Shown one piece after another: positions 16,571 to 55,413 of a stretch of DNA of 60,658 bases. Each line of letters opens with the position of its first letter. The stretch's first letter is position 1. The notes beneath the pieces were generated by a model. That model worked only from the letters and a program-made list of their open reading frames with translations, had not been told where the DNA came from and did no database searches. The position numbers were made by a program, and so were the translations under genes. Origin of the DNA: Zoogloea sp. (GTDB taxonomy: Bacteria; Pseudomonadota; Gammaproteobacteria; Burkholderiales; Rhodocyclaceae); the NCBI RefSeq assembly GCF_028689785.1, contig NZ_JAQVCN010000029.1:1-60658 (forward strand), given 5' to 3'.

Positions 16571-17263
16571 TCAGTCGGCGGCGAAGCAGTAGAAGTAGCC
16601 CGCGCCGCCCGTGCTCACCAGGTTCTCCTGGCTGCAGCCGCGGCTGTCGTGGGTGGAGTTCCAGGATACGTTGCCGCCGGTCGCGCCCCGGTTGGTGCGA
16701 TCTGAGTGGCCGACGCGGACGGAGCCTTCGCCGCTGCTGGTGTAGTTGCGGCAGGTATGGTCGGCGGCGTCGGTGTAGGCGGTGCCGTCGGGCTTGGTGC
16801 CGGTGATGATGTCGTGTTCGTTGGGGGTTTCGCCAACGCCCTTGATGGGGGTTCCTTTCTCGGTCAGCGCGGTGGTGCGGTGCAGGTTGCTGCCCAGCTG
16901 CCCCAGCTCGACGGTGTCGCCGTGCAGGTGGGCGACGCTGTTGGCGATGATGGCGCCCTTGGCGTTGGCCCACGGGCCCTTGCCGATGCGGTCACGGGCG
17001 TTGACGGCGGGTTGGCCGCCGCTGGCCTGGGTGCTCAGGTAGGCGCGCCAGCTGCGATTGCCTGCACCAACGCTGGCAGCGAGCTTCTGGCAGTGAGCGT
17101 CGGCGCCGGCCAGGCCGCCCAGGTCGGCGCCCTTGCCCAGCCCGGTGCTGGTGACGAAGAAGCCGAGCGGGGCTTGGGGGGCGGCAGGCTGGGCAGCCTG
17201 TTGGGCGAAGGCGCCGGCGGAAGCGGCAAGCAGTACGCTGGCAAGAAACATACGGTTCATCAT
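16571..17263 (-). CDS. Secreted lectin/endostatin-like protein of unknown function
   Basis: This 230-residue exported protein has a signal peptide MMNRMFLASVLLAASAGAFA, then a short Gln/Ala/Pro linker and a compact domain. The domain (from LGFFVTSTGLGKGADLGGLA) has HCQKLAASVGAGNRSWRAYL, WANAKGAIIANS, and a C-terminal GGAGYFYCFAAD. This pattern occurs in bacterial C-type-lectin/endostatin-fold proteins. Four Cys of the mature domain could make two disulfides, which suits its co-transcription with the DsbD-like reductase 52 bp downstream. ATG 17263 is chosen because AAGGA lies 5 nt upstream. The ligand is unknown. Confidence 0.75.
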   Translation of the reverse strand: MMNRMFLASVLLAASAGAFAQQAAQPAAPQAPLGFFVTSTGLGKGADLGGLAGADAHCQKLAASVGAGNRSWRAYLSTQASGGQPAVNARDRIGKGPWANAKGAIIANSVAHLHGDTVELGQLGSNLHRTTALTEKGTPIKGVGETPNEHDIITGTKPDGTAYTDAADHTCRNYTSSGEGSVRVGHSDRTNRGATGGNVSWNSTHDSRGCSQENLVSTGGAGYFYCFAAD

Positions 17264-17319: not shown

Positions 17320-18900
17320 TCAGGGGGTCTGGCCGTCCCGGGCCAGCCTGGGAGGTGCCGGCTCTGCCTTGGCGGGCCGGGCCGGAGCGGCCTTTCCCGG
17401 TTTGCCGGGCTGGAGGGTGCGGCGCAGGCGCTTCCAGCCCAGCACCGCGGCGCTGTAGCCGAGTACCAAGCCCAGCAGCACCCAGGTGAGCATCCAGGCG
17501 TCCCACACGGGGCGTTGGCGCAGGGTTTCCAGATCCCAGTGGTGCAGGGCCGACCACAGCCAGCGGTAGGCTCGGCGGCTGTCGTCCTGGCGCAGGATCA
17601 CCCGGCCGTCGCGGGGGTCGAGGTAGACGTGGGTGTGGCCCGGGTCGGCCAGCTCCACCTGGAGCACGGGCAGGGGGCGCTCCACGGCGCCCTGGTTGTG
17701 GCGGGCGTAGTAATAGTCGTCGTAGGTGTCGAGCAGGCCATGGGACAGGACGGGGGCGGCATCCACCAGCCGTGCGGTGGCGGCCACCAGGGCGGTGTCG
17801 CTGAAGCGGGTGGTGTTGCCGCTGCCGGGCAGCGGAGTGCTGAGGCCATCGCGATTTACGCCGAGTATCTGCACCTCTCTGCCGACCCGGCGCAGGGCGA
17901 TTTCGACGATGTCGCGGTTCTCGATTTCAGTGACGAAGGCTGAGGGACGCCAGTCGAGCAGCGGCACCGGCACCTCGGTGCCCAGGTAGCGGGCCAGTTC
18001 GGCGCGGTTCGGTGTGGCCGGCGAGAACAGGTTGAAGGGGTTGTTGTTGAGGTAGCCCGACAGGGCCCACAGCAGGGCAAAGCTGCCGCCGAGCAGGCCG
18101 CTCCAGAAGTGCCAGGTGTTCCACACGTCGCGGTAGGGGTGAACGCGGCCCTGGCTGTAGGTGGGGCGGCTGCCCCAACCCGGGCGCCAGCGCTGCCAGC
18201 CGATGATGAGCCCGGTGAGGCTGGCGGCGAAGGCCAGGAAGCCCAGCCAGGCGAGCACGCTGCGCCGCCCGTCGGCGGACAGGCCAGCGGTTTCGAGGGG
18301 GCGCATCAGGTGAATCCAGTTGCCACTCCAGTACAGGGCCCGGTCCAGGCGGGTGCTGTCGCGCACGACCTCGCCGCTGCGGGCCGAGACCAGCAGCTCG
18401 CGGCTGCCGCTGCCCACGGCAAAGCGGTGGAAGGGGCGCAGCGCTTCGTGGTTGCGCACGGCGCTGTCCTGGATGCCGGTATCCACGTAGAGGATGGCCG
18501 CCCCCGGCCCGGCCCACTGGCGGGCGATGGCCTGGGCGTCGTTCACCGAGATCCGGGCGAGCTGGCCGTCGGTGGCCGACAGGGCGAAGCGCCGGCCGAG
18601 GGTGTCATCCACCAGCCAGCGGGGTGTACCGCCCTGGCGGACCAGGCGGGCGTCGGCGATGGGCGCCTCCTTGCCTGCTTCGGCCGCCCGGCGCTGGGCA
18701 GCACTGCGCTGCCAGGCTTCGCCCAGGCTTAGCCATCCGTATTCGGGCTGGACGGGTTCGGCGCCAGCGAGCTGCGCGGCGCGGCCGAGGGCCGAGGGGC
18801 TCGCGTACATGATGACCAGCCCGGAGCTGAACCAGATGGCCATGAAGAGGGCCAGGGCGACGCCGACCCAGCGGTGAATCTGATACAGCAGACGTGTCAT
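17320..18900 (-). CDS. PepSY-associated transmembrane protein
   Basis: This is an inner-membrane protein of about 526 residues. It opens TRLLYQIHRWVGVALALFMA, the first helix of PepSY_TM proteins. Further hydrophobic segments follow at about 255-275 and 300-320 (WHFWSGLLGGSFALLWALSG), with a last one near 480 (MLTWVLLGLVLGYSAAVLGW). Large periplasmic loops contain the PepSY-like strands (ARISVNDAQAIARQWAG; HTHVYLDPRDGRVILRQDDS). Such proteins often accompany TonB receptors, and some reduce ferric siderophores. It lies 332 bp from the TonB receptor on the same strand, beyond a terminator, with its own sigma-54-like promoter. It probably heads the operon to the redoxin at 13694. Confidence 0.88.
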   Translation of the reverse strand: MTRLLYQIHRWVGVALALFMAIWFSSGLVIMYASPSALGRAAQLAGAEPVQPEYGWLSLGEAWQRSAAQRRAAEAGKEAPIADARLVRQGGTPRWLVDDTLGRRFALSATDGQLARISVNDAQAIARQWAGPGAAILYVDTGIQDSAVRNHEALRPFHRFAVGSGSRELLVSARSGEVVRDSTRLDRALYWSGNWIHLMRPLETAGLSADGRRSVLAWLGFLAFAASLTGLIIGWQRWRPGWGSRPTYSQGRVHPYRDVWNTWHFWSGLLGGSFALLWALSGYLNNNPFNLFSPATPNRAELARYLGTEVPVPLLDWRPSAFVTEIENRDIVEIALRRVGREVQILGVNRDGLSTPLPGSGNTTRFSDTALVAATARLVDAAPVLSHGLLDTYDDYYYARHNQGAVERPLPVLQVELADPGHTHVYLDPRDGRVILRQDDSRRAYRWLWSALHHWDLETLRQRPVWDAWMLTWVLLGLVLGYSAAVLGWKRLRRTLQPGKPGKAAPARPAKAEPAPPRLARDGQTP

Positions 18901-19232: not shown

Positions 19233-22046
19233 TCAGAGCTTGCCGGTGAACATCAGCCCGACCCAGCGCTGGGTGGCCGGGGAGTAGCTGTTCCAGGTCT
19301 TGGACAGGGGGGTGCTGTCGGCAAAGGCGTTCTTCACCAGCAGGCTTACGTCGTAGGACTTGTCGGCCTTGCCCAGGCCGATGGCCAGGTCGGTGATGCT
19401 GTAGTCCGGAATCCAGCCGTAGCTCGACAGGGAGTTGTCGGAGTTGAAGCGGCTGTAGTACGCGGTGTTGAAGCTGGCGTGGAATTCCTTGTCGCCCAGC
19501 ACCGGCTTGCGGTAGTCGGCGCCGATGTTGAAGTTCCACTTGGAAGCGCCCGGCAGGGTCTTGCCAGTCAGGTCCTTGTAGGCGGGGGCGCCGGAGTAGT
19601 TGTCTTCGTTGGGCAGGGCGGCGTTGGTGAAGTCCTTGTACTTGGCGTCGTTGTAGGCGCCGGCGAAGCGGATGGTGACGTTGCGGATGCCCGCGTACAC
19701 GCCGTCCACCTCGACACCCTTGGCCTCCACCTTGGGCACGTTGCCGGTGGCGGCGGTGTAGTAGTTGGTGCCGTCGTTGGTGGCGTTGGTGGTGTATTGG
19801 TCAAGCACGCGGACCGACTGCTGGTAGTCGCGGATCTTGGTCAGGTACAGGGCGGTGTTGAGGATCAGGGTCTTGTCGAGCAGGGCAGACTTGAGGCCCG
19901 CTTCAAAGGAGTTGGTCTTTTCGGCCTTGACCAGGTTGGAGTAGCCGTTGGTGAGCTGGGAGATCCCGGCCTTCTCGCCGTACTGCCAGGAGAAGTAGGC
20001 GGTCTGGTTGGGGTTCAGCTTGTACGAGGGGCTGACCACGAAGGAAGGCTGGGTGTCGCGGAAGGATTCGGCCTTGGTCTGGTTGAACAGCACGCCCATC
20101 TGGGAGGCACGGATGGCCTTGGCGTCGGCCACCTGGCGCTTCTGGTCGGCGGTCAGGCTGTTGTAGGCGGCACCTGGGTTGTTCGGGTTGATGGCCGTGC
20201 CGAAATACTTGTTGGCCACCTTGTCGGCCACCGAGAGCTGGGCGGCGGAGTTGTTGGCGCCCAGCACGCCGCTGCTGTTCGAGGCAAACCCGCCCAGTTG
20301 CACGCCATTCACTGCGACCGGGTTCAGCTCGGCGCCGTTGCCGTTGTCGCGGATGAAGCTGGAGCCCACGTTGCTGCGATCCTCACGGGTCAGGCGGATG
20401 CCGGTGGTGAGGGTCAGGGGCTCGCTCAGGTGCCAGTTGGCCTGGGCGAAGAGCGCGGTGCTCTTGTTCTTGATGCTCTGCAGGCCAGTGGGGGAGTTGT
20501 AGGCCATGGTCAGGCGGTTGAGGGAGTTCTGCATCAGCAGCTGACCGCCAGAGCTGGCCGCGAGGCGGTTGTACTGGGCGGTGTTGGCAAACCACGCACC
20601 GGCATCGCTGCCCCACTCACGCTGGTATTCCGAGCTGTTGCTGACGTTGATCACGAACAGGCCGGCCTGGTAATCCACGAAGCCACCCGTCTTGGAGCTG
20701 ATGCGGAGCTCCTGGCTGCGCTGGGTGTAGTCGTTCCAGAAGCCGCCGGAGTTGCGGTAGATGTCGAAGGGGGTGCCTTCGTCATTGACCGCGTTGAAGT
20801 GGTAGTCCTTGTAGGCGGTGATGGAAGTCAGGGTGTGGTTGGCGACGTTCCAGTTGAGCTCCAAGGAGGCGCCCTTGCTGCCGGTCACCAGGGGGCGGGC
20901 CGAGTCGGCGTTGACCGCGTTGCGCCCACCGCCATAGAGGTAGTCATTGGCGTAGCTGTAATTGCTCTGCTGGGTGAACCAGCTGCGGCCGAGGCGGGTC
21001 GAGGCGTCGGTGCCCAGGGCGTTCACCGAGCCGTTGGAGTAGATGGCCGGCGTGGGGGTGTTGATGTTCCGGCCGTTGGTGTACTCGCCCGAGCGGGGCT
21101 GCAGTTCAAGGGCCAGGCGGGCATTGAAGTCGGTGGTCGGGGTGAGCAGGAACTGCACCCGGCCCGATACCCGGTCGATGTTCTGGTAGGACTGGTCCCG
21201 GTTGTCCAGGTTGGTGATGTCACCGCGGCCCTTGTCCACCACGAAGGCGCCACGCCAGGCCAGCAGGTCGTCCACAATGGGGCCGCCGGCGGCCAGCTTG
21301 CCGATCACCCGGTCGTTCTGGCCGAGGGTCAGGGAATAGTCGGCGCTGGGGGTGAAGGAGGGTTTGCGGGTGGTGATGTTGATGACGCCCAGGCTGGTGT
21401 TCTTGCCCAGCAGGGTGCCCTGGGGGCCGCGGGTGACTTCCACGGCCTCCACGTCGTGGTAGTTGAAGCTGGAGGTGAGGGCGTTGTAGGCGTAGTTAAC
21501 ACCGTCCACGATGACGCCGACGCTGGGGTCCTGGGCTTCGGTCTGGCCTTGTTTGCCGATGCCGCGGATGGACAGGCTGGAGGTGCGCTGGTTGCCCTGG
21601 TTCCAGGACACATTGCCGAGGCGCTGGGTGATGGATTTGATGTCGTCGGCGCCAGTGCGGTCGAGCTCGCGGCCAGTGACCACGGAGACCGACAGGGGCA
21701 CGTCCTGCAGTCGCTCGATGCGGTTGCGCGAACGGATCACCACCGAATCCAGGGCCACGGCCTCTTCGGGGGCGGCGGCGGGTTCGGCTGCGGCGGCGAC
21801 AGGCGTTGCGGCGGGGGCCGGCGTGCCCAGCTGGCGGGCCAGATCGGCCTGGGCCTTGTCGAGGGCCTGGCGCAGACGGGCGACTTCGGATTGCAGTTCG
21901 GCAGCGGATTTTTCCTGGGCCTGCACGCCGCCCGCAGCAAGGAGGGCAACGGTTGCCACGGCGGTGGCGAAGGGGCTCAGGCGAAACTGACGGCCTTCAT
22001 GGGTGCGGCGCTGGCGGGCCGCCCGATGGGTATTGTTTTGGCTCAT
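19233..22046 (-). CDS. TonB-dependent receptor with N-terminal coiled coil (paralogue 1)
   Basis: This is a 937-residue outer-membrane importer. A long basic n-region and signal peptide end at GGVQAQ (about residue 43). A coiled-coil helix follows (SAAELQSEVARLRQALDKAQ, about 47-70) and an Ala/Pro-rich linker. The TonB-box-like LDSVVIRSR precedes the plug, which has VPLSVSVVTGRELDRTGADD, SLSIRGIG and VEVTRGPQGTLLGKNT. The C-terminal strand ends WVGLMFTGKL. The coiled coil between signal and TonB box is not part of ordinary receptors and is shared with the paralogue at 22343. It is transcribed separately from it (terminator at 22159-22194, own promoter at 22085-22100). The ligand is unknown. 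Confidence 0.92.
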   Translation of the reverse strand: MSQNNTHRAARQRRTHEGRQFRLSPFATAVATVALLAAGGVQAQEKSAAELQSEVARLRQALDKAQADLARQLGTPAPAATPVAAAAEPAAAPEEAVALDSVVIRSRNRIERLQDVPLSVSVVTGRELDRTGADDIKSITQRLGNVSWNQGNQRTSSLSIRGIGKQGQTEAQDPSVGVIVDGVNYAYNALTSSFNYHDVEAVEVTRGPQGTLLGKNTSLGVINITTRKPSFTPSADYSLTLGQNDRVIGKLAAGGPIVDDLLAWRGAFVVDKGRGDITNLDNRDQSYQNIDRVSGRVQFLLTPTTDFNARLALELQPRSGEYTNGRNINTPTPAIYSNGSVNALGTDASTRLGRSWFTQQSNYSYANDYLYGGGRNAVNADSARPLVTGSKGASLELNWNVANHTLTSITAYKDYHFNAVNDEGTPFDIYRNSGGFWNDYTQRSQELRISSKTGGFVDYQAGLFVINVSNSSEYQREWGSDAGAWFANTAQYNRLAASSGGQLLMQNSLNRLTMAYNSPTGLQSIKNKSTALFAQANWHLSEPLTLTTGIRLTREDRSNVGSSFIRDNGNGAELNPVAVNGVQLGGFASNSSGVLGANNSAAQLSVADKVANKYFGTAINPNNPGAAYNSLTADQKRQVADAKAIRASQMGVLFNQTKAESFRDTQPSFVVSPSYKLNPNQTAYFSWQYGEKAGISQLTNGYSNLVKAEKTNSFEAGLKSALLDKTLILNTALYLTKIRDYQQSVRVLDQYTTNATNDGTNYYTAATGNVPKVEAKGVEVDGVYAGIRNVTIRFAGAYNDAKYKDFTNAALPNEDNYSGAPAYKDLTGKTLPGASKWNFNIGADYRKPVLGDKEFHASFNTAYYSRFNSDNSLSSYGWIPDYSITDLAIGLGKADKSYDVSLLVKNAFADSTPLSKTWNSYSPATQRWVGLMFTGKL

Positions 22047-22084
22047 GACGAGACTTTCCTGTTTGAAATTCCGTCACCTCCTTT

Positions 22085-22100
22085 GGCAATAGACATGCCA
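22085..22100 (-). promoter_or_regulatory. Sigma-54 promoter of coiled-coil TonB receptor 1
   Basis: The minus strand reads TGGCATGTCTATTGCC, against the consensus TGGCAYG-N4-TTGCW. The -24 block is intact and the -12 TTGC is perfect. The predicted transcription start is near 22074, 28 nt before the ATG, with AGGAAAG as ribosome site. Confidence 0.6.
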
Positions 22101-22158
22101 CGCGCCGGGAGCGGGATATATGGATTTCTGGATTTCTTATTCCCTTCGGGTTTCTTCT

Positions 22159-22194
22159 GAAAAAACAGCCGTTTCGGTGGTGTGCCCGGAAACG
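22159..22194 (-). terminator. Rho-independent terminator of coiled-coil TonB receptor 2
   Basis: CCGTTTCGG (22168-22176) pairs with CCGGAAACGG (22185-22194) with one bulge. On the minus strand the stem is followed by CTGTTTTTT. It sits about 150 nt beyond the receptor stop and upstream of the receptor 1 promoter, so the two paralogues are separate units. Confidence 0.7.
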
Positions 22195-22342
22195 GGAAAC
22201 GCGCCTGGCATAGGGGGCGCGCCCGGGGCCGTGGCGGGCTGTTCCAGGGTGGAATGCTGGGCAATCAACAGTTCCGGTGGCGGGCTGTTTGATGCGCCGC
22301 AGCGATCCGCCCATGGGGCAGGGCTGCGGCGCAGGGAGTGCA

Positions 22343-25189
22343 TCAGAGCTTGCCGCTGAAGACGATGCCGTACCAGCGGGGGTAGGGGTAGGGCGTGTAG
22401 CTGGCCCAGCCTTTCTCGTGGGCGGTATCGTTGAAGGCGTTCTTGGCCACGAAAGTCACGTCGTAATTGCCCTTGTGGTGACCAAGGCCGATGGCCAGGT
22501 CGGTGGTGGCGCGGTCGGGGATCCACGCGTAGTCGGAGAGCAATTCGTCGTTGTTGGTGGAGCCGAGGTAGGCCGTGGTGAAGCTGGCGTGGAAGACCTT
22601 GTCGCCCAGCACCGGCCGGCGGTATTCACCGCTGATGTTGGCTGTCCAGTAAGGGGCTTCGCCCAGGCGCTGGCCGCTGCGGTCGAGGAAGGGGCTGGAC
22701 AGGTAGGTCAGCTCGGAGGGCTTGCCGGCGTTCTGGAAGTCCTTGTAGCGGGCATCGTTGTAGGACGCCGCCACCCGGAAGGTGGTGAAGGGGATGCCGT
22801 TGTAGGCGGCGTCCACTTCGACCCCGGAAACCTGGACCTTGGCCACATTGCCCTGGATGCTGGCATAGGCGGTGGGGTTGGCGATGTTGTTGTTGATGTT
22901 GTCCTGGGTGGCGAACTGATCAATGGCGACCACCGTCTGCTGGTAATCCTTGATGTCCATCAGGAAGACGTCGGCATTGAGGGTCAGGGTCTTGTTGAGC
23001 AGGAAGGTCTTCACCCCCAGTTCATAAGCGTTGGTGCGCTCCGGCTTGACCGTGGTGGGCAGACCATTGACCACCAGGGCAGCGCCCGACTTTTCACCGT
23101 ACTGCCAGCTGGCGTAGGCGGTGATGTTGTCGTTGATCTTGTACTTGGGGCTGAGGACGGCCGAGTGGAGCTGGTCCTTGTAGTCGCTGCGCACATTGTT
23201 GATCAGCGCACCGATCTGCGAGGCGCGGATGGCCTTGGCGGCGGCCACCTGGGCTTTCTGGGCGGCGCTCAGGGCAGCATAGGTGGCCACCCCGAAATAC
23301 TGCTGGGCCACCGCATCGGCCTTGGCGATCTGCTCCGCGCTGTTGGCGCCAGCCAGGTTGCCGGCGGTGCCGTTGGCGACGCTGGCGGCGGAGTAGGCCA
23401 CCGAGTTGAAGCCGCCCTGGGAGGCTGTGCCGCCAACGCCGTTGGTGCGCGACGACACCGGGTTGAGGAAGGCGCCGTAGCCCTGGTTGTTGAGCTGGCT
23501 GAACTGGGTGGTGGAGCGCGACTCGGTGCCGATGCGCAGGCCGGCGGTGACGGTCAGGGCGTCGCTGAGGTGAATGTTGGCCTGGCCGTAGATGGCCTTG
23601 CTGAAGGTCTTGATGTACTGCTCGCTCCAGCGGTACAGCCCGTTCAGTGAATCGGATGCCAGGGAGCGGCCGGCACCGATGTTGGTGCCCGCGGTACCAA
23701 CCAGGGTGTTGTACTGGTTGTTGTTGGCAAACCAGGCGCCCGCGTCGGCGCCGTAGCTCGAACGGCTCTCCACCTCGTCCTCGGTGCGCAGCAGGAAGAT
23801 GCCGGTCTGGTAGTCGATGCGCTTGCTGGGCTTGCCGGTCAGGCGGAACTCCTGGCTGGCCTGGTTGTAGAAGACGCTGCCGCCCCCCAGCCGGCTGATG
23901 TCGAAAGGCGTGCCTTCGTCGTTGCGCGCCTGGAAGGTGTATTGGCGCACGCCGGTGATGGAGGTCAGGGTGTGGGTGTCGTTGAGGGTGTAGTTGAGCT
24001 CTGCCACCGCGCCGCTGCTGGAGGCGATCTGACCCTGGGTTTCGTTCTGATACATCTTTCCGATGCGAGTGGGAGCATTCAGAAAATCGGCATAGGTGAA
24101 GCTGCGGTTGCCGAACCAGCTGCGGGTCAGGCGGGAGCGGTTGCCGGTGCCGTTCGGGTCCACCAGGGTGCCGTTGGCATAGCGCAGGGGCACGTCCACG
24201 AAGTTGGTCAGGCCGTTCTGCACCTGGGTGGCGCGGGGCTGGATGTCGAGGCTGAGCTTGGCGTTGAAGTCTGCCGTGGGCGTCAGCAGAAACTGGGTGC
24301 GGGCGCTGACCCGGTTGCGGTTGAACATGGTGTCCAGATCCTTGCCGGTGTCGTCCGCCACCGTGTAGTAGCCGCGCTGGTTGTTCACCACGAAGGAACC
24401 ACGCCAGGCCAGCAGGTCATCGATGATGGGGCCGCCCAGTGCGCCCTTGAGCAGTACCGTTTCGCGGAGGCCGTAGGTCAGTTCCAGGTCGGAGCTGGGG
24501 GTGAAGGACGGGGCCTTGCTGTTGATGGTGATGGCGCCCGCACTGGCGCCCTTGCCCTGCAGGGTGCCTTGGGGGCCGCGGGCCACTTCCACTGATTGCA
24601 CGTCATAGAAGTCGAAGTTGCCGAGCTGGGCGAGGCCATAGGGCACGCCATCCACGATCAGGCCGACGCTGGGGTCCTGGGTTTCGGTGAAGCCCCGGCG
24701 GCCGAGGCCGCGGATCGACAGGGACGAGCCCCGGGTGTTGTTCTGATTGAAGGTGATGTTGCCGAGGCGCTTGGTGATGGCCTCGAAGTCGGAGGCTTGC
24801 TCCCTTGCCAGCTCGGCGCCGCTCACCACCGAGATGGATACCGGCACGTCGTGCAGTTTCTCGAGTTGCCGACGGCTGCGCACCACCACCGAATCGAGGG
24901 TCTGGGGGGCTGTGGTGGCGGGGGGCGTGTCGGCGGATACGTCAGCGGCTGTGGTTGCGGTGGCGGCTGGGGTGGTCTGATGCTGGCCGAGCTGGCGCCT
25001 GAGTTCCTGGATCTCGGCATTGGCTTTCTGCAGGCGGGCTTCCAGCTCGCTGGCGGAGGGCGGCTCGGCGGCATGCAGGGCACCGGAGGCACCCAAGGCC
25101 AGGCTGGCCACCCGCAGGGCAATCGGAGTCCGTCGGGACGGCAGAAAGGGGGCACGGGGGGCTCTGCTTGTTTCTTTTCTATGGCTCAT
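22343..25189 (-). CDS. TonB-dependent receptor with N-terminal coiled coil (paralogue 2)
   Basis: This 948-residue outer-membrane importer is paralogous to the receptor at 19233. The signal peptide ends GALHAA (about 42), then a coiled-coil helix ASELEARLQKANAEIQELRR (about 46-66) and a Thr/Ala/Pro linker. The TonB-box-like LDSVVVRSRRQ comes before the plug (VPVSISVVSGAELAREQASD, SLSIRGLGRRG, VEVARGPQGTLQGKGASAG). The barrel ends YGIVFSGKL. Both paralogues share the rare GTPFDI and DQFAT/DQYTT loop regions. It is divergent from the DUF1549 operon across a 645-bp regulatory gap that holds sigma-54-like promoters in both directions, which suggests joint control and a receptor for the substrate handled by that operon. 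Confidence 0.92.
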   Translation of the reverse strand: MSHRKETSRAPRAPFLPSRRTPIALRVASLALGASGALHAAEPPSASELEARLQKANAEIQELRRQLGQHQTTPAATATTAADVSADTPPATTAPQTLDSVVVRSRRQLEKLHDVPVSISVVSGAELAREQASDFEAITKRLGNITFNQNNTRGSSLSIRGLGRRGFTETQDPSVGLIVDGVPYGLAQLGNFDFYDVQSVEVARGPQGTLQGKGASAGAITINSKAPSFTPSSDLELTYGLRETVLLKGALGGPIIDDLLAWRGSFVVNNQRGYYTVADDTGKDLDTMFNRNRVSARTQFLLTPTADFNAKLSLDIQPRATQVQNGLTNFVDVPLRYANGTLVDPNGTGNRSRLTRSWFGNRSFTYADFLNAPTRIGKMYQNETQGQIASSSGAVAELNYTLNDTHTLTSITGVRQYTFQARNDEGTPFDISRLGGGSVFYNQASQEFRLTGKPSKRIDYQTGIFLLRTEDEVESRSSYGADAGAWFANNNQYNTLVGTAGTNIGAGRSLASDSLNGLYRWSEQYIKTFSKAIYGQANIHLSDALTVTAGLRIGTESRSTTQFSQLNNQGYGAFLNPVSSRTNGVGGTASQGGFNSVAYSAASVANGTAGNLAGANSAEQIAKADAVAQQYFGVATYAALSAAQKAQVAAAKAIRASQIGALINNVRSDYKDQLHSAVLSPKYKINDNITAYASWQYGEKSGAALVVNGLPTTVKPERTNAYELGVKTFLLNKTLTLNADVFLMDIKDYQQTVVAIDQFATQDNINNNIANPTAYASIQGNVAKVQVSGVEVDAAYNGIPFTTFRVAASYNDARYKDFQNAGKPSELTYLSSPFLDRSGQRLGEAPYWTANISGEYRRPVLGDKVFHASFTTAYLGSTNNDELLSDYAWIPDRATTDLAIGLGHHKGNYDVTFVAKNAFNDTAHEKGWASYTPYPYPRWYGIVFSGKL

Positions 25190-25230
25190 GGTCTTTCACT
25201 CAGGGAACACGAAATGGGTTCCGGTGAAAT

Positions 25231-25246
25231 AGCATTTGGCGTGCCA
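25231..25246 (-). promoter_or_regulatory. Sigma-54 promoter of coiled-coil TonB receptor 2
   Basis: The minus strand reads TGGCACGCCAAATGCT. The -24 block TGGCACG is perfect and only one -12 base differs (ATGCT for TTGCW). The predicted start is near 25220, a 31-nt leader. The AT-rich DNA further upstream (25260-25480) is the only such tract nearby and would suit activator binding. Confidence 0.65.
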
Positions 25247-25664
25247 TGGGTATTTGGGTGGCCTTTATCCATTTTCAGGGTGGAATTGAAGCCGGTGTCT
25301 GCATGTGTAAATGGAAAATGCCATTCAAATCATGATTTATATCTTTTGCGTTGAACCTTAATTGCCATTCAGTCTTTTGTTGCGCTGCAATCAAATATGG
25401 GCGGAATGGTGAACGGAATTGAACATGACGCCGGGGCGGACGATTTTCAATACGCTGGAAGCGGATTTTTCTGAAACTGTTGGCGGATGAGCAGGGGTGC
25501 GGGGTGGGCAGCAACTGCGTTCTGCTGGCTGTTTGCGGCGCAGCATGCTGTTTGCTGGCGTGCATCTCCGGTATGGCCTGGCGTTCTGCCGGGTATGTCG
25601 TCATGGTGTTGAATATTAAGGGGTTGTTGAGGCAGAGAAGGGGGCGGAGAGCGATCTGGAGGCT

Positions 25665-25680
25665 TGGCACGATAGCTGCA
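25665..25680 (+). promoter_or_regulatory. Sigma-54 promoter of the DUF1549-DUF1501 operon
   Basis: The plus strand reads TGGCACGATAGCTGCA: a perfect TGGCACG, correct spacing, and CTGCA for TTGCA. The predicted start is near 25691, giving a 144-nt leader to the ATG at 25835. With the opposite promoter at 25231-25246 it makes a divergent sigma-54 control region. No gene is credible in 25190-25834; short ORFs there lack ribosome sites and family features. Confidence 0.6.
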
Positions 25681-25834
25681 AAGGGAAGGGCGCTGGGCCC
25701 GTGGGCTGCGAGGCAGCTTCAGCGAGTCGGAATGTGTTTCGGGTTTTGCGGTGCATTCGTTGTGGCGATGTCCGGAATTGCCAGATAGGCAATCCGGGCG
25801 GCGCCTGATCAATCGTGTTTCAGGGAGTCTCTTG

Positions 25835-28171
25835 ATGCTTGTGAGAAAAGCTGTGTATGTGGCGGTCATGATGGCCGTGACGACGTCGGTCATTGGTGCG
25901 GAAACGGAAAAGAAGCCCGCGGTGGCGGCTAAATCCACTGTTCCCAATGGCTGGGCCTATCTGCCGGTGAAGTCCCCGGAGGTGCCGGCCGTCAAGCAGG
26001 CCAAATGGGCACGTACCCCCATCGACAATTTCGTGCTGGCGCGCCTGGAGGAAAAGGGCATCAAGCCGGCCGCCGAGTCTGATCGGGCCACTTTCATCCG
26101 CCGCGCCACGCTGGACGCCTGGGGCCTGTTGCCGACGCCGGAGGAGGTTCAGGCCTTCGTCAATGACAAGTCTCCCAACGCCTACGAGAAGCTCGTGGAC
26201 CGGCTGCTGGCGTCCCATCATTTTGGTGAGCGCCAGGCGCGGCGCTGGCTTGATCTGGCGCGCTATGCCGACAGCTCGGGCTTCCAGAACGACACGACCC
26301 GGCCTAACAACTGGCGTTATCGCGACTATGTGATCAGCGCCTTCAATGCCGACAAGCCCTTCGACCGCTTCATCAAGGAGCAGGTGGCCGGGGACGAGCT
26401 GTGGCCCGACAGTCAGGATGCCAAGGTAGCGACCGGCTTCCTGGGAGGCTACCCGGACAACCACAATTCCCGCGATCTGGTGCAACGCAAATACCAGATC
26501 ACCACCGACATCACCGACACCATCGGCGAAACCTTCCTGGCTTCCACCACGGGCTGCGCCCGTTGCCACAATCACAAGGCCGACAAGCTCAGCCAGAAGG
26601 AGTACTTCCAGCTCCAGGCCTTCTTTGCCAATACGGCCTTCGATTTGCGCACGCCGCTTGCCAAGGGCACCGAAACCGCCTGGGACAAGAAGTTTGCCGA
26701 ACAACAGGCCAGGTACAGGGAGGCCACCAAAGAGATCCGCGACAAGATGGCCGCCGTTGTGGCGCCCTATCGTGAAGCCGGCATCAAGTATCAGAAGGAG
26801 CGCTACCTGACCGACAGCCGGGAGTCCATCTTCAAGGCCGAGAAGGACTGGAACGCCCTTGATCGCTGGGTCAACTTCCGTCACAAGATGGTCTTCAATG
26901 CCGATACCGATCTGGCGGGCTACCTGAGGCTGACCGCCGAGACCAAGGATCACGCGGACCACTCGCCGGAGCGGATCACCGCCTGGAAGGAGTACCAGAA
27001 GCTCCAGGCGGAGCTGCGCAAGTTCGAGCATCTGCGCCCCATTGGCGGTTCGAACTTCATCACCGCGGCCACCGAGTTGGGCCAGACCGATTCGCCTCCG
27101 ACCTTCGTCCGTTTCGGCGGCATCCACGAGCGTCCCACTGAAGAAGTTCAGCCGGGCATTCCGGCTCTGTGGGGCGGCGACAAGATCGACATCAAGCCGA
27201 CGGCCAATTCGTCGGGGCGCCGCACCGCCCTGGCTGGCTGGCTGGCCAGCCCGAACAACCCTCTCACGGCACGGGTCTATGTGAATCGGGTGTGGAGCCA
27301 GTACTTCGACAAGGGCATCGTCAATACCCCTGCGGATTTCGGTCGTGCCGGCGAGAAGCCGACCCATCCGGAGCTGCTCGACTACCTGGCTTCGAATTTC
27401 GTCAAGAACGGCTGGAGTGTGAAGAAGCTGCAGCGGGAGATCCTGCTGTCCAGCGTCTATCGTCAGTCCTCTGCGCCGCGGGATGATGTGGCCAAGCTCG
27501 ATCCGAAGAACGAACTGCTGGCGGTCTATCCCCGCAAGCGCCTGGAGGCCGAGGAGATCCGCGATGCATTGTTGTATGCATCCGGTCAGCTGACCGACGT
27601 GGTTGGCGGTCCGTCCGTGTTCCCGCCCATCGCCAAGGTGCTGGAGAACGGCCGCGCCGATTTCGACGGCAACCGCCAATGGACGGTGTCCACCGACAAG
27701 GCCGACTGGAACCGTCGCAGCATCTACATCTTCAGCCGCCGCAGCCTGCCTTACCCGCTGCTGCAGAACTTCGATCCGGCCAATCCTTCCCAGGCCCACC
27801 ACAAGCGTGACGTGACCACCACACCACTGCAGGCCCTCACCCTGTTCAACAGCGACATCGTCGTGAATTGGTCTCAGGCGCTGGCTGGCCGGATCATCAA
27901 TGAAGTGGGCAAGGACGAGACGGCCCAGTTCAACCGCCTCTACCAGATCCTCTTCTCCCGGGAGCCGAACAAGGCCGAAGCTGTCGCGCTCAAGGCCTTC
28001 CTGGCGAAGGAAGAGGGCCTTGTCCAGAAGAAGGTGGCCGCCGGCAGGTTCGAAGCTGCAGTGCCCACTGGCTTGAAGGACCCGAGCCTCATCAATCCGG
28101 TGCGTGGTGCTGCCTTCGTGGATCTGGTGCATACCGTGGCCAACTCCAACGACTTCGCCTATCGCTTCTGA
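25835..28171 (+). CDS. DUF1549/DUF1553 haem-binding periplasmic protein
   Basis: This is an exported protein of about 778 residues of a type abundant in Planctomycetes and Verrucomicrobia. A signal peptide (LVRKAVYVAVMMAVTTSVIG) is followed by the DUF1549 domain: IDNFVLARLEEKGIKPA, ATFIRRATLDAWGLLPTPEE, RQARRWLDLARYADSSGF. The domain ends in a c-type haem motif TTGCARCHNHKAD (C241, C244, H245). The C-terminal DUF1553 domain has NPLTARVYVNRVWSQYFDKG, PTHPELLDYLASNF and RKRLEAEEIRDALLYASGQL. The N-terminal cytochrome (PSCyt1) of many planctomycete homologues is missing. ATG 25835 follows GGGAG. It is the first gene of an operon with DUF1501, peroxiredoxin and cytochrome c. No enzymatic activity has been established for the family as far as I know. 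Confidence 0.93.
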   Translation: MLVRKAVYVAVMMAVTTSVIGAETEKKPAVAAKSTVPNGWAYLPVKSPEVPAVKQAKWARTPIDNFVLARLEEKGIKPAAESDRATFIRRATLDAWGLLPTPEEVQAFVNDKSPNAYEKLVDRLLASHHFGERQARRWLDLARYADSSGFQNDTTRPNNWRYRDYVISAFNADKPFDRFIKEQVAGDELWPDSQDAKVATGFLGGYPDNHNSRDLVQRKYQITTDITDTIGETFLASTTGCARCHNHKADKLSQKEYFQLQAFFANTAFDLRTPLAKGTETAWDKKFAEQQARYREATKEIRDKMAAVVAPYREAGIKYQKERYLTDSRESIFKAEKDWNALDRWVNFRHKMVFNADTDLAGYLRLTAETKDHADHSPERITAWKEYQKLQAELRKFEHLRPIGGSNFITAATELGQTDSPPTFVRFGGIHERPTEEVQPGIPALWGGDKIDIKPTANSSGRRTALAGWLASPNNPLTARVYVNRVWSQYFDKGIVNTPADFGRAGEKPTHPELLDYLASNFVKNGWSVKKLQREILLSSVYRQSSAPRDDVAKLDPKNELLAVYPRKRLEAEEIRDALLYASGQLTDVVGGPSVFPPIAKVLENGRADFDGNRQWTVSTDKADWNRRSIYIFSRRSLPYPLLQNFDPANPSQAHHKRDVTTTPLQALTLFNSDIVVNWSQALAGRIINEVGKDETAQFNRLYQILFSREPNKAEAVALKAFLAKEEGLVQKKVAAGRFEAAVPTGLKDPSLINPVRGAAFVDLVHTVANSNDFAYRF

Positions 28172-28212
28172 GTAAGCCCCCAATAGCAGACAACAAGACT
28201 CCATAAGGAACA

Positions 28213-29670
28213 ATGACCATGAGTACCAACCGTCGAGACTTTCTCCTCAAGGCCGGGCTGGGTGTGGGCGGCATTGCCGCCAGCGGCTTCATCCCGGGCG
28301 TGGGCTTCATCAACGCGGCCACCGCCGCCGAGCTGATCGACCCGCTGGCCCCCAAGCAGCCGCACTTCCCGGGCAAGGTCAAGTCGGTGATCTGGCTCCA
28401 CCAGAACGGCGCGCCCTCGACTCTCGACCTGTACGACTACAAGCCCGAGCTGGTGAAGCTCGCCGGGCAGCCGGTGCCGGCTTCCTTCATGAAGGGCATC
28501 AAGACCTCCACCCAGGGGGGGGTGAACAAGCTGTTCTATTCCAATCAGCGCACGTTCAAGCAGTACGGCGAGAGCGGCGCCTGGTTCTCCGAGCTGCTGC
28601 CCAATCTGGCCCAGCACGCCGACAAGCTGGCCTTCATCAAATCCAGTGTCACGGTGGGCGCCACCCACGACATCTCCATCCTCAAGCTCAACACCGGCGA
28701 CCTCAATCCCGGCCGGCCGTCCCTGGGGGCGTGGGTCAACTACGCCCTGGGCTCCCTCAATCCCGACCTGCCGTCCTATGTGGTGCTCTACAACGGCGAG
28801 CAGGAGCCCAGCGCCGGCTCGGTCAATTGGAGCTCCGGCTTCCTGCCGGCCGTCTATCAGGGCACGGCCTTCCGGCCTGGGGATTCCCCCATCATCTATC
28901 TGGACCGCCCCGAACTGCGCTCCGCCGACCAGCAGCGCGCCTCCCTGGATCTGCTCAAGCACCTCAACCGTCTGGGCGGTGAGCGTCGCCCCAACGACAC
29001 CGAGCTGCGCGCCCGCCTGGAGTCCTACGAGCTGGCCGACCGCATGCAGAAGGCTGCGCCGGAGGCCGTCGATCTCTCCAAGGAGTCCGAGGCCACCCTC
29101 AAGCTCTACGGCATCGACGATCCGACCAGCGAAAGCTATGGTCGTGTGCTGTTGCGCGCCCGCCGGCTGGTCGAGCGGGGCGTGCGCTTTGTCCAGGTGG
29201 TGTCCGGCTACCCCAGCAACATCTCCGACCAGGAGCGCCGCAGCTGGGACGCCCACAGTGACCTGGACGGCAACCACGGTACCCAGGCGCGCATGGTGGA
29301 CAAGCCCATCGCCGGTCTGCTGCAGGATCTGAAGACCCTTGGCCTGCTCGACTCCACCCTGGTGGTGTGGGCGTCGGAGTTCTCCCGCACCCCGTGGGGC
29401 GAGAGCGGCACCGGCCGCGACCACAACCCCTGGGGCTACACCCAGTGGATTGCCGGTGGTGGCGTCAAGGCTGGCTTTACCTACGGCGAGACCGACGAGC
29501 TTGGTGTGCAGGTGGCGGACAAGGACAAGGGCGTGGACACCTACGACCTCCACGCCACCGTGCTGCACCTGCTGGGCCTGGATCACCTCAAGACCACCTT
29601 CGTCAACAATGGCCGCTCCGAGCGCCCGACGGTGGTTTATGGCAAGGTGGTCAAGGAGCTGCTGGCCTGA
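28213..29670 (+). CDS. DUF1501 protein (alkaline-phosphatase-like fold, Tat-exported)
   Basis: This protein of about 485 residues has a twin-arginine signal (NRRDFLLKAGLGVGGIAASG). DUF1501 belongs to the alkaline phosphatase/sulfatase superfamily. The stations here are SVIWLHQNGAPSTLDLYDYK, SWDAHSDLDGNHGTQARMVD, VVWASEFSRTPWGESGTGRD, HNPWGYTQWIAGGGVKAG and DLHATVLHLLGLDH, which could supply metal-binding Asp and His. It lies 41 bp after the DUF1549/1553 gene, the usual order in Planctomycetes. Genetic linkage of the two families is widespread but the reaction is unknown; hydrolysis of a phosphate or sulfate ester is the simplest guess from the fold. ATG 28219 is an alternative start with better ribosome-site spacing. 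Confidence 0.93.
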   Translation: MTMSTNRRDFLLKAGLGVGGIAASGFIPGVGFINAATAAELIDPLAPKQPHFPGKVKSVIWLHQNGAPSTLDLYDYKPELVKLAGQPVPASFMKGIKTSTQGGVNKLFYSNQRTFKQYGESGAWFSELLPNLAQHADKLAFIKSSVTVGATHDISILKLNTGDLNPGRPSLGAWVNYALGSLNPDLPSYVVLYNGEQEPSAGSVNWSSGFLPAVYQGTAFRPGDSPIIYLDRPELRSADQQRASLDLLKHLNRLGGERRPNDTELRARLESYELADRMQKAAPEAVDLSKESEATLKLYGIDDPTSESYGRVLLRARRLVERGVRFVQVVSGYPSNISDQERRSWDAHSDLDGNHGTQARMVDKPIAGLLQDLKTLGLLDSTLVVWASEFSRTPWGESGTGRDHNPWGYTQWIAGGGVKAGFTYGETDELGVQVADKDKGVDTYDLHATVLHLLGLDHLKTTFVNNGRSERPTVVYGKVVKELLA

Positions 29671-29754
29671 TGCCGGTCGGCTTCCGCTTCCTTCGATGAC
29701 AACAAGGAAGGCGGCCGGCATGAATGGCCGGCTGCCCTTCCGGGACAAACCCCA

Positions 29755-30354
29755 ATGAACAAGCAATTGATCAGAAATACCCTTCTGTCCGGCCTGCTGC
29801 TGTCGGCTGCCCTTGCCACCCCCGCCCTGGCCGATCTCAAGGAAGGGGACAAGGCCCCGGACTTCACTGCCCAGGCATCCCTGGCGGGCAAGGCCTTCAA
29901 CTACACCTTCAAGGACGCCCTGAAGAAGGGCCCCGTGGTGGTCTATTTCTATCCCTCGGCCTTTACCGGCGGCTGCAACCTGCAGGCCCACACCTTCGCC
30001 GAGAACATCGACAAGTTTGCTGCTGCCGGGGCCACCGTGATCGGCGTGTCCCTGGACAGCATCAAGCGCCTCAACGCCTTCTCGGCCGACCCCGAATACT
30101 GCGCCGGCAAGCTGGCCGTGGCCTCCGACCCGGAGGGCCGGATTGCGCGCTCCTTCGATCTGGCCGTGGCCGACATCCCGGCGGGCCGCAAGGACACCCG
30201 TGGGCAGGACATCGACCATGGCCGGGTGGATCGGGTGACCTTCGTCATCAAGCCCGATGGCAAGGTGGCAGCCACCATCGGCGGCGTGGCCCCTGTGGCC
30301 AACGTGGAGAAGGCCCTTGAGACCGTGAACCGTCTGGCCTTGGCACGACGCTGA
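29755..30354 (+). CDS. Exported peroxiredoxin (AhpC/TSA, Bcp-like)
   Basis: This 199-residue peroxiredoxin has a Sec signal peptide (LLSGLLLSAALATPALA). The peroxidatic site is YPSAFTGGCNLQAHTF (PxxxTxxC), and a probable resolving Cys lies in DPEYCAGKLAVASDPEGR, the arrangement of two-Cys Bcp/PrxQ proteins. Periplasmic location is unusual for PrxQ and implies a dedicated periplasmic reductant. It lies 84 bp after DUF1501; that gap contains an imperfect hairpin (CTTCCTT...AAGGAAG) that could tune distal expression. Co-expression suggests that the DUF1549/DUF1501 chemistry makes or meets peroxides. Confidence 0.92.
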   Translation: MNKQLIRNTLLSGLLLSAALATPALADLKEGDKAPDFTAQASLAGKAFNYTFKDALKKGPVVVYFYPSAFTGGCNLQAHTFAENIDKFAAAGATVIGVSLDSIKRLNAFSADPEYCAGKLAVASDPEGRIARSFDLAVADIPAGRKDTRGQDIDHGRVDRVTFVIKPDGKVAATIGGVAPVANVEKALETVNRLALARR

Positions 30355-30367
30355 GGGCCCGGTTTCG

Positions 30368-31123
30368 ATGACGGATTCGAGGGGGGCAAAGTGGGCCCCG
30401 CGGTGGCGCCCGGCCATGGCAATGGTGGGGGTGGTGTTGGCCGGATGCCTGCTGGCAGCGCCGGCCGGGGCGCAGTCGGCCAAGCCCCCGGCAGCCCGGG
30501 GGCAGGGCAAGGCTCCGGCTGCGGCAGTGGTATCGGCCCAGGTTCAGGGGCTCCGGGGTGATCCTGTCCGTGGTCTGAAGAAGTCCGATGACGAGCGCTG
30601 CCAGGAGTGCCACGGGGCGGATGGCAACGGGCTCGGGCACAGCGAGGGTTCTGAAGGGCGCCTGCCCAAGCTGGCCGGGCAGCCGGTGGAGTATCTGCTG
30701 AAACAGCTGGACAACTTCCGCAGCGGCGCCCGCAAGCACGATGTGATGAGCATGATGGCGCGGACAGTGACACCCGCCGATCTGGCCGATATCGCCGCCT
30801 ACTTCGCCAGCCAGCCGCCGATGAAGGGGGATGGCTCGGGGGACAACCCGGTGGGCCGGGGGCTGTACGAGAGGGGTGATGCAGGCCGTGGCATTGCCGC
30901 CTGCATCACCTGCCATGGGCCCGGCGGGAAGGGCCTCGCCGGGGCAGGGGCCGAGTCGCCGCGGCTCGGTGGCCAGGAGTGGCGTTACCTGGAAAAGCAG
31001 CTGCTCGACTGGCGCAGCGGGGACCGCAGCAACAGCCGGGATGGGGTGATGAACAGCCAGATCCGCCCCCTCAGCGATGAGGAGATCCGGGCCCTGAGCA
31101 GCTACCTTTCGGGCCTCCCCTGA
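30368..31123 (+). CDS. Dihaem cytochrome c (c4-like)
   Basis: This exported protein of about 251 residues has two class I cytochrome c domains. The first haem motif is DERCQECHGADGNGLG, with axial Met likely in the VMSMMARTVTP region. The second is AACITCHGPGGKGLAG, followed by SPRLGGQEWRYLEKQLLDWR and MNSQIRPLSDEEIRALSSYL, where the Met is the probable ligand. This duplicated layout is that of cytochrome c4/c553. The hydrophobic segment MAMVGVVLAGCLLAAPAGA is the signal, and the LAGC within it could make it a lipoprotein. It begins 13 bp after the peroxiredoxin and ends the operon, probably as electron carrier between the DUF1549 haem protein or peroxiredoxin and a terminal acceptor. Confidence 0.9.
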   Translation: MTDSRGAKWAPRWRPAMAMVGVVLAGCLLAAPAGAQSAKPPAARGQGKAPAAAVVSAQVQGLRGDPVRGLKKSDDERCQECHGADGNGLGHSEGSEGRLPKLAGQPVEYLLKQLDNFRSGARKHDVMSMMARTVTPADLADIAAYFASQPPMKGDGSGDNPVGRGLYERGDAGRGIAACITCHGPGGKGLAGAGAESPRLGGQEWRYLEKQLLDWRSGDRSNSRDGVMNSQIRPLSDEEIRALSSYLSGLP

Positions 31124-31345: not shown

Positions 31346-31726
31346 ATGAAAACCAAGCTTGCCTATCTCGCCCTGACCGCCATCTTTGCCGGCAGTGCCT
31401 ATGCCGCCACCAGTGCCGTGGATGAAGACTTCATGCGCAACATCGAAGACACCTTCAAAAGCGCCGATTCGGCCATTGGCCTGAAGGATGCCAAGACCGC
31501 CACCGCCGACGCCAAGGAGCTGGAGAAGCTCTTTGCCGAGGTGGTCGACCACTACGTGAAGAAGGGGGATGCGGAAGAAGGGGTGAAACTCTCGGAAAAG
31601 AGTGTCGCGCTGTCGAAGCAGATCGTCGTCACCGTTGCCGCCAAGGATTTCGACTCGGCCGCCGCCGCATCCGCCGAACTGGGCCGCGCCTGCAAGAGCT
31701 GCCACAACGTGTACAAGCAGGATTGA
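31346..31726 (+). CDS. Small exported c-type cytochrome (c'/c556-like helical bundle)
   Basis: This is a 126-residue protein with a signal peptide MKTKLAYLALTAIFAGSAYA. The mature protein is all helical, and its single haem motif is near the C-terminus (ACKSCHNVYKQD), as in class II cytochromes c. It is shorter than typical cytochrome c'. A 222-bp gap separates it from the dihaem cytochrome; the gap holds an AAGGGC/GCCCTT hairpin without a T tract. It may belong functionally to the preceding operon, but no promoter of the sigma-54 type is visible in front of it. Confidence 0.85.
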   Translation: MKTKLAYLALTAIFAGSAYAATSAVDEDFMRNIEDTFKSADSAIGLKDAKTATADAKELEKLFAEVVDHYVKKGDAEEGVKLSEKSVALSKQIVVTVAAKDFDSAAAASAELGRACKSCHNVYKQD

Positions 31727-35413: not shown

Positions 35414-35678
35414 GGAAGCCCACCGGCCGTCCTTGGGGCGAGTTCTGCGCCGGCATGTAATCACCCCGCCAGGCTTTGAGAGCCTGATGAGGCCCGGTCC
35501 GGCCTTGTAAAAAGCTTATCGCCTGAAGTGATGATGATCCCGGCGCAGGAATGTGCTGCAGCTGTTGCTCAGGCAACAGCCAGGGCCAAGCCGGGGGGGC
35601 TGGCTGAGGCTGCTGGGCGGCCACATTTGTCTTTGGAATGAAGGCCTTCGGTGCGCATCGCCGCGCCCGGCCGCCCCA

Positions 35679-45000: not shown

Positions 45001-45214
45001 GGGGGCAGGGGCTGGCGCGCCGGGAGCAAGCAAACCCTTTCCCTGGGCAATATCCGTTCCACGGCCGCCGGGGCCCGCCGGATGCGGCTTTGGGGCTGAG
45101 GGGTCGGCGGGGCCTGTGTTGGCTGGGCAACAGCTTTGCTGCACTGCGGTTGGCTGGCCAGCAGCCGCGGTGGCCCGCAGGCGGTGGCGGGCGGGCTGCG
45201 GGGCGGGTTTTGCC

Positions 45215-45230: not shown

Positions 45231-45274
45231 GAGGCTCGTCCCGTCCCTTCGTCACCGGAAACGCCTTTTTGTCC

Positions 45275-50030: not shown

Positions 50031-50084
50031 AAGTGGGGACGTGGGCCAAGGCCCGTGTTGCCCGTGTTTTTGCCGATTCCTGCC

Positions 50085-51083: not shown

Positions 51084-51108
51084 GTTTCCCGTTTTTCCGG
51101 AGTCCGCC

Positions 51109-51999: not shown

Positions 52000-52062
52000 G
52001 TTCCGCACGGGGCAATCCCTTCCTCCCACCTTCAATCCAAACCTCATCCATCCGGAGCTTCA

Positions 52063-55347: not shown

Positions 55348-55413
55348 GATGTCTTTCTTGGCTGAATATGAAATGTCGGGAGGCGCCTGGCGACGCATCC
55401 TCCGGTCGTGAGT

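Follow-up and report, generated by a model that had tools for sequence, protein, structure and literature searches.

Our analyses of a 60,658-nucleotide stretch of Zoogloea sp. DNA (contig NZ_JAQVCN010000029.1 of assembly GCF_028689785.1; the whole stretch is called the window below) suggest that a locus around positions 19,233 to 31,123, built on a haem protein of the PSCyt2-PSD1 type (DUF1549/DUF1553) and its DUF1501 partner, takes part in sulfur scavenging. It very probably encodes an outer-membrane uptake and redox unit, and control of this unit by sulfur supply is likely; a fuller reading would make the locus the centre of a regulon for sulfur starvation, bringing in an organosulfur compound for processing in the periplasm, and to this we give somewhat better than even chances. 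The argument draws on features computed directly from the sequences, namely the gene set and its conservation, promoter- and enhancer-like sites, a co-occurring activator, the predicted folds, and the grouping of the betaproteobacterial haem proteins in a single clade beside those of planctomycetes.

An earlier note on this DNA had described a compact operon with an exported peroxiredoxin and a dihaem cytochrome opposite two paralogous TonB receptors, and open reading frames together with Pfam profiles confirm all the genes named between 19233 and 31123 at their coordinates (Table 1). The receptor genes run leftward, and the haem operon rightward, away from the intergenic stretch that they share at about 25.2-25.8 kb; the operon starts with PSCyt2-PSD1 and DUF1501, which are followed by the peroxiredoxin, the dihaem cytochrome c and cytochrome c'. 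The start codon of PSCyt2-PSD1 is uncertain (GTG at 25751, TTG at 25832 or ATG at 25835). The complete uptake, cleavage and redox unit that the note had proposed stands as an uptake, periplasmic and redox unit, but it is larger than was drawn, extending to the cytochrome c'-like gene on the right and to the PepSY and DUF1554-like genes on the left. The closest named relatives of the window are Zoogloea (90% identity to Z. dura). Because the PSCyt2 gene occurs only once in this 5.08-Mb genome (128 contigs, the window being contig C35) and the same set recurs in other genera, this gene set is more than a chance neighbourhood.

The haem gene was found in 14 of 297 sampled genomes of the family, 7 of 399 of the order and 2 of 369 of the class (this genome and one partial match), these samples overlapping; it was called in 27 of 28 sources and is also present at locus L115 (47% G+C). 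Across 26 betaproteobacterial loci, a set that leaves out the window itself, the Zoogloea loci L023, L024 and L025 and the short loci L003-L020, tblastn detected DUF1501 in all 26, the peroxiredoxin in 24, cytochrome c' in 23, the dihaem cytochrome in 22 and the receptor in 19, or 21 when stretches adjoining L115 and L116 are included, so that the neighbourhood of the betaproteobacterial homologues, on which the earlier proposal hinged, retains both receptor and redox genes. Both peroxiredoxin cysteines are kept in all 28 aligned homologues. A wider set comprises a second cytochrome c' (15 of the 26 loci), a pseudo-rhodanese (14), the DUF1554-like protein (14) and an SMP-30 lactonase-like protein (12), with cytochrome b561 (9), PepSY (7) and a dienelactone-hydrolase-like protein (3) less frequent; the DsbD/ScsB-type gene passed a strict test in two loci and gave partial matches at the edges of other Zoogloea loci. 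None of the core and wider-set partners, from DUF1501 through PepSY, turned up in 20 control segments (20 kb each, from seven of the same genomes), whose positions were picked blind though not at random. All 19 cluster-bearing genomes have the pseudo-rhodanese, some of them on a contig other than that of the cluster, as do 2 of 33 cluster-free genomes, a non-random set from the family and order surveys.

Five loci lack a receptor (L026, L027, L110, L113 and L114; at the first three it was searched for within about 10 kb on each side). In four of them, all except L113, a porin-like protein stands with an adjoining ATP-binding cassette (ABC) transporter of the sulfonate family, a pair seen in none of the 21 receptor-bearing loci (p 3e-4). 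Since the loci are not independent (several are from Zoogloea, two from Rugamonas and two from genomes of one genus), this p-value and those below overstate the significance. Another ABC transporter of that broad family lies farther off in receptor-bearing genomes, 13 kb away in the window and in the flanks of G275 and G204.

The operons of this set share promoter-like sequences. In a scan of the 300 bases upstream of operon-first genes, -24/-12-like sites of the sigma-54 type with at most two mismatches preceded 24 of 28 receptor genes, 24 of 29 haem genes, 12 of 13 pseudo-rhodanese genes, 8 of 8 PepSY genes and 4 of 4 porin genes, against 3 of 57 other operon-first genes of the loci and 13 of 122 control genes; with at most one mismatch, the corresponding counts were 15/28, 10/29, 7/13, 2/8 and 1/4, against 3/57 and 2/122. 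These sites are consensus matches and thus candidate promoters. The window holds seven (2.7 in shuffles, none of 100 shuffles reaching seven), three of them intragenic or far from any start. A gapped-word search upstream of 61 promoters, after removal of L022, L024, L050 and L109 as near-duplicates, returned the palindrome GCTGYTG-N6-CARCAGC, present with at most two mismatches at 43 of the 61 and at none of 122 controls. As only promoters with a sigma-54-like site entered the search, the count of 43 is conditional on that choice and on discovery in the same sequences, and fair tests therefore lie outside them. There, a perfect palindrome precedes the third TonB receptor of the window and a copy with one mismatch precedes its formylglycine-type sulfatase, both accompanied by sigma-54-like sites, which in the latter case flank the palindrome on both sides (two mismatches). 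Among 22 palindromes beyond the window, studied in 20 surrounding stretches, four were intergenic, including one upstream of a pump gene that neighbours the activator described below and one upstream of a metallo-beta-lactamase (MBL)-fold gene, and none had a sigma-54-like site within 260 bases.

A plausible reader of this palindrome is a sigma-54 activator (P0001) of 351 residues that has no N-terminal domain. Homologues at E 1e-90 or better occur in 18 of the 19 cluster-bearing genomes, G111 being the miss, and in 4 of the 33 cluster-free ones (p 3e-9, the genomes not being independent), and the gene adjoins the haem operon or lies within about 25 kb of it at L026, L032, L113, L114, G026, G086 and G595. 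In 11 of 22 activator genomes, two of these 11 being cluster-free, it is located at most 6 kb from a gene for a family-2A encapsulin, and in this genome the distance is about 4 kb; here, cysteine-desulfurase-like, rhodanese-like and TonB/ExbBD-like genes were noticed by eye between or beside the two. Genomes G164 and G248, of the same genus as the window, have the activator, encapsulin and pseudo-rhodanese and no haem gene. An activator of about 350 residues without N-terminal sensing domain (judged by eye) and -24/-12-like promoters are also found in the SfnR regulon of Pseudomonas, SfnR having a role in dimethyl sulfone use according to a partial account. Unlike here, that regulon has other target genes, and no monooxygenase of the sfn/msu type was identified in our material, for which no profile search was made.

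The link to sulfur comes from several sides. The family-2A encapsulin is present in 17 of the 19 cluster-bearing genomes and 10 of the 33 cluster-free ones, and the available excerpt of a study of Synechococcus describes a relative that is upregulated in sulfate starvation and encloses a cysteine desulfurase (PMC8049743). One 112-kb contig of G275 gathers encapsulin, desulfurase, activator, pseudo-rhodanese, haem operon and sulfonate-family ABC transporter together with a serine acetyltransferase, a cysteine synthase, a sulfate-binding protein and a relative of O-acetylhomoserine sulfhydrylase, and sulfate, sulfonate and cysteine genes surround loci of several genera. Counted by hand, 13 of 44 segments of 20 kb contain at least two kinds of sulfur gene, against 0 of 20 controls (p 0.004), when the activator and the rhodanese-like gene are counted. 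In Pseudomonas aeruginosa, the gene for the peroxiredoxin LsfA ranks with the most strongly induced antioxidant genes under sulfur starvation, as reported in the accessible part of the source (PMC12581299). Among the open-access literature matches listed, none reported the DUF1501, DUF1549, DUF1553 or PSCyt families in sulfur starvation, which is no proof of novelty.

Several observations weigh against a sulfur-starvation regulon. A strict tally that omits the activator and the rhodanese-like gene leaves 8 of 44 segments with at least two kinds (0 of 20 controls, p 0.04), removal of two G275 segments chosen with foreknowledge gives 7 of 42 (p 0.055), and with at least one kind the comparison is 17/44 against 3/20 (p 0.05). 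None of the sulfur genes in the query set was found in the stretches searched at L028, L030, L033, L034, L050, L106 and L107, at G212, G287 and G320, or in L021 and L022. The SsuA-family matches of the ABC transporters fall under the NCBIfam cut-offs, and this family also carries nitrate and other anions. A formylglycine-type sulfatase lies near the cluster in the window and in 0 of the 26 other loci. Sulfur transfer by the 'rhodanese' was dropped as a candidate function, its catalytic Cys being Ser in the 14 sequences aligned by eye, and a protein without this cysteine thus gives no evidence of such transfer. The encapsulin is carried by those 10 of 33 cluster-free genomes as well, and its knockouts showed no growth defect in the excerpted Synechococcus study (PMC8049743); likewise, genes of the AhpC type were slightly down in the excerpted Pseudomonas study (PMC12581299). 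The likeness of the activator to SfnR is one of build. The palindrome is degenerate (three mismatches) at the haem operon and at receptor 2 of this genome, and its genome-wide frequency is near background (24 sites against 17 for the reversed pattern). Finally, no palindrome with at most one mismatch precedes the sulfate-binding or ABC genes of the window or the encapsulin gene, so these may answer to other control. As the enrichment in sulfur genes is borderline, the sulfur reading rests on several partial lines taken together. While the earlier note had called the substrate unknown, gene context, promoters and linked activator now point to sulfur scavenging, with a sulfate ester or a sulfonate as the most likely class.

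As for the two proteins at the heart of the locus, PSCyt2-PSD1 carries a single c-type haem motif (CARCH) whose residues C242, C245 and H246 are invariant across 58 aligned proteins. Its predicted model is mostly helical (predicted local distance difference test, pLDDT, 88; predicted template modelling score, pTM, 0.89) and has no match in the PDB at E <= 0.001 (best E 0.3, probability 0.06), and its sequence gives chance-level matches in the same database. The predicted model of DUF1501 (pLDDT 86) is best matched in Foldseek by sulfatases and LtaS enzymes (first match E 4e-8, probability 1.00; 199 matches at E <= 0.001), with low TM-scores of 0.29-0.42 among the 50 matches listed, and supports the alkaline phosphatase/sulfatase fold that had been suggested for it, as a distant member of this superfamily. 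Its sequence retrieves weak PDB matches (E 0.03-1), mostly sulfatases but also lysozymes and an LtaS-type enzyme. Across 58 sequences, Ser69, Asp72, His152, Asp346, His348, Asp363, Glu389, Arg392, Arg402 and His404 are invariant or almost so. Among these, Glu389 aligns in a profile comparison (90% probability) with the Asp in the DNG motif of sulfatases, a metal ligand. The closest matches of the DUF1501 model are family S1 sulfatases (PF00884), from which DUF1501 differs in having no formylglycine cysteine: the CxPxR motif test failed, the window protein contains no cysteine at all, and it therefore cannot be an ordinary formylglycine sulfatase, an identity that we rejected. By eye, from a shared TG pair and a predicted helix start, the invariant His152 appears to occupy the formylglycine position.

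In the mechanism that we propose, sulfate shortage would cause the activator, of SfnR-like build and devoid of an N-terminal sensing domain, to act at the palindrome GCTGYTG-N6-CARCAGC, switching on the TonB receptors and the PSCyt2-PSD1/DUF1501 operon. The receptor would take an organosulfur compound across the outer membrane, a task that in some genera would fall to a porin and then to a sulfonate-family ABC transporter. Once in the periplasm, the compound would be processed by DUF1501 and its haem partner in an electron-coupled reaction, the electrons leaving, on a putative path, through cytochrome c', the dihaem cytochrome c and cytochrome b561, while the peroxiredoxin would clear peroxide by-products. 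In Zoogloea, the neighbouring ScsB-type protein might be its source of reductant, and there is precedent for a protein of this type supplying a peroxiredoxin. That the pair itself releases sulfur we consider somewhat less likely than not, and its chemical step is a guess. More speculatively, the pair might constitute a new kind of periplasmic enzyme that frees sulfur from organic compounds by a redox-coupled reaction, with a one-haem protein of a predicted fold unmatched in the PDB partnered by a sulfatase-fold protein with an invariant His at the formylglycine place; we regard this as less likely than not. If true, the many planctomycete and verrucomicrobial PSCyt genes would code for enzymes acting on organosulfur compounds or sulfated polymers.

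Other readings of the same genes are unlikely to different degrees. The receptor could import a sulfated or plain oligosaccharide, PSCyt2-PSD1 and DUF1501 acting on the sugar as in a proposal made for Verrucomicrobia; this we consider unlikely, although PSCyt genes lie near sulfatases in Verrucomicrobia, some with carbohydrate-binding modules, in the portion of that study available (PMC5615132), and although SMP-30 lactonase-like and MBL hydrolases belong to the wider set, because no glycoside hydrolase was recognised in the betaproteobacterial loci (by eye, with no profile search made). Uptake of iron as a siderophore or haem complex, with PepSY, cytochrome b561 and the other cytochromes reducing the imported ferric complex, is improbable: siderophore/haem receptor families are the best NCBIfam matches of both receptors and PepSY_TM is found in 7 of 26 loci, but the receptors score 90.3 and 93.9 bits against a TIGR01783 cut-off of 223.5 and failed that test, Fur control does not fit with promoters of sigma-54-like type or with an activator whose gene is linked to that of a sulfur encapsulin (no search for Fur sites was made), and four of the five receptor-less loci carry a porin with a sulfonate-family ABC transporter instead. 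There is little probability that we are dealing with an antioxidant and envelope set switched on in sulfur starvation that has no scavenging reaction of its own; the peroxiredoxin and cytochromes are indeed among the best-kept genes and LsfA is induced in such conditions in the portion of the Pseudomonas study available (PMC12581299), but nutrient uptake is favoured by the conserved receptors, by the porin and ABC transporter that can stand in their place, and by a sulfatase that shares the regulatory sites. Scavenging of phosphorus or another anion, in which DUF1501 would be an alkaline-phosphatase-superfamily enzyme hydrolysing phosphate esters, is very improbable: its predicted fold matches the phosphate-transferring LtaS as well as sulfatases, but inspection of the window by eye, with no profile search made, revealed no phosphate gene, and sulfur genes are present.

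The preferred reading, a sulfur-starvation regulon, recalls the ats/sft cluster of Pseudomonas (atsACBR-sftR-atsK-sftP), which combines an arylsulfatase, a sulfonate-family ABC transporter and a TonB receptor for sulfur acquisition in the available part of its description (PMC3596284). That cluster also includes the LysR regulator SftR and the alkylsulfatase AtsK. A TonB receptor belongs to the cluster here too, and a sulfonate-family ABC transporter directly adjoins the core at 4 of the 26 loci, with family scores under cut-off; unlike in ats/sft, the conserved core consists of a haem protein and DUF1501, with peroxiredoxin, cytochromes and sigma-54-like promoters. The same two families form pairs in planctomycetes, Verrucomicrobia and other lineages, where DUF1501 is directly downstream of 32 of 58 eligible PSCyt2-PSD1 genes. 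In contrast with the betaproteobacterial loci, none of 63 loci of this kind (914 kb in total, often short stretches) carries the receptor, peroxiredoxin, cytochrome or pseudo-rhodanese partners, so that betaproteobacteria appear to have assembled the partner set around an acquired pair. A tree of 58 PSCyt2-PSD1 proteins, made by a quick method and rooted at midpoint, places the 16 betaproteobacterial rows in one clade (Shimodaira-Hasegawa-like approximate likelihood ratio test, SH-aLRT, 100), which has a long stem and lies next to a Gemmataceae clade, and several sister Zoogloea have two tandem PSCyt2-PSD1/DUF1501 pairs, the window having one. This fits a single acquisition from a planctomycete-like donor followed by duplication. 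In the sister loci L021, L022 and L029, the second pair comes with a further peroxiredoxin and cytochromes, which the window lost or never had.

Two unexplained protein families thus appear in what seems to be a nutrient system under regulation in betaproteobacteria, some of which are available as isolates (Duganella, Rugamonas, Roseateles and Zoogloea). The prediction is that sulfur starvation induces these genes and that use of an organosulfur compound needs them, which turns a question about a large protein family into a growth assay.

Table 1. Genes and candidate regulatory sites of the window, with the basis of each assignment
Feature	Position	Strand	Basis
Sulfate-binding protein	1291-2298	+	NCBIfam
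Cysteine synthase	3554-4546	+	NCBIfam
Serine acetyltransferase	4543-5559	+	NCBIfam
Sulfonate/nitrate-family ABC transporter	9800-12608	+	SsuA-family match 98 bits, under cut-off 163.5
DsbD/ScsB-type membrane thiol electron transporter	14320..16518	-	NCBIfam DsbD-family matches under cut-off
DUF1554-like exported protein	16571..17263	-	PF07588 19.4 bits, under cut-off 27.5
PepSY_TM membrane protein	17320..18900	-	Pfam
TonB receptor 1, paralogue of receptor 2	19233..22046	-	Pfam Plug and barrel above cut-offs
Sigma-54-like site before receptor 1	22085..22100	-	2 mismatches; coordinates derived from distance
Palindromic enhancer-like site before receptor 1	22284..22303	.	2 mismatches
TonB receptor 2, coiled-coil-like stretch ahead of plug (by eye)	22343..25189	-	Pfam Plug and barrel above cut-offs
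Sigma-54 -24/-12-like site before receptor 2	25231..25246	-	1 mismatch
Palindromic enhancer-like site between divergent candidate promoters	25476..25495	.	3 mismatches to GCTGYTG-N6-CARCAGC, weak
Sigma-54 -24/-12-like site before haem operon	25665..25680	+	1 mismatch
PSCyt2-PSD1 (DUF1549/DUF1553)	25835..28171	+	Pfam PSCyt2 273 bits (cut-off 29.8), PSD1 304 (cut-off 28.5)
DUF1501 (PF07394), twin-arginine signal NRRDFL (by eye)	28213..29670	+	Pfam 444.4 bits (cut-off 27)
Exported peroxiredoxin (AhpC/TSA), two cysteines	29755..30354	+	Pfam
Dihaem cytochrome c, two CxxCH	30368..31123	+	Pfam; motif count
Cytochrome c'-like protein	31346..31726	+	PF01322 26.7 bits (cut-off 26.5)
Candidate enhancer palindrome before third TonB receptor	35561..35580	.	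0 mismatches
Sigma-54-like site before third TonB receptor	35679-35694	.	1 mismatch
Third TonB receptor	35735-38098	+	Pfam
Resistance-nodulation-division (RND)-type pump	41827-45000	-	By eye
Candidate enhancer palindrome between RND-type pump and formylglycine-type sulfatase	45146..45165	.	1 mismatch
Formylglycine-type sulfatase, CSPTR motif	45269..47605	+	PF00884 214.9 bits
Tetratricopeptide repeat (TPR) protein with eight CxxCH motifs, after sulfatase	47629-49821	+	Haem-motif count
SMP-30 lactonase-like, dienelactone-hydrolase-like and cytochrome c' genes of the wider set	50055..52530	+	Pfam
Exported pseudo-rhodanese, Ser replacing catalytic Cys	54874..55398	-	PF00581 14.6 bits, under cut-off 22.2
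Cytochrome b561	58672..59379	-	Pfam

Among the neighbouring genes, an SfnB identity was considered for the flavoprotein at 8721-9803 and rejected, as it has no NCBIfam match at 1e-10 and Pfam gives only Acyl-CoA_dh_N. By eye, a coiled-coil-like stretch follows the signal peptide in both receptors and in the L026 porin (7989-9482). The RND-type efflux pair (40550-45000 in the window, by eye) is repeatedly found near the cluster, also in L050, L107, L110, L112, L115 and L116. The proteins encoded at 52801-54777 and 56554-58632 look by eye like paralogous C-terminal processing proteases, and relatives of the second lie close to the cluster in L026 and L108. In L030, L031 and L050 (Duganella and Rugamonas), the cluster is bordered, by eye, on one side by a GroEL-like gene and cytochrome c maturation genes and on the other by TonB/ExbBD genes. 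The window itself starts with an MBL-fold gene (51-1136), and an MBL-like gene recognised by eye, with an enhancer-like palindrome upstream and a MetX-like gene (also by eye) adjoining it, runs off the end of contig C22 (L197), so that the two contigs may adjoin.

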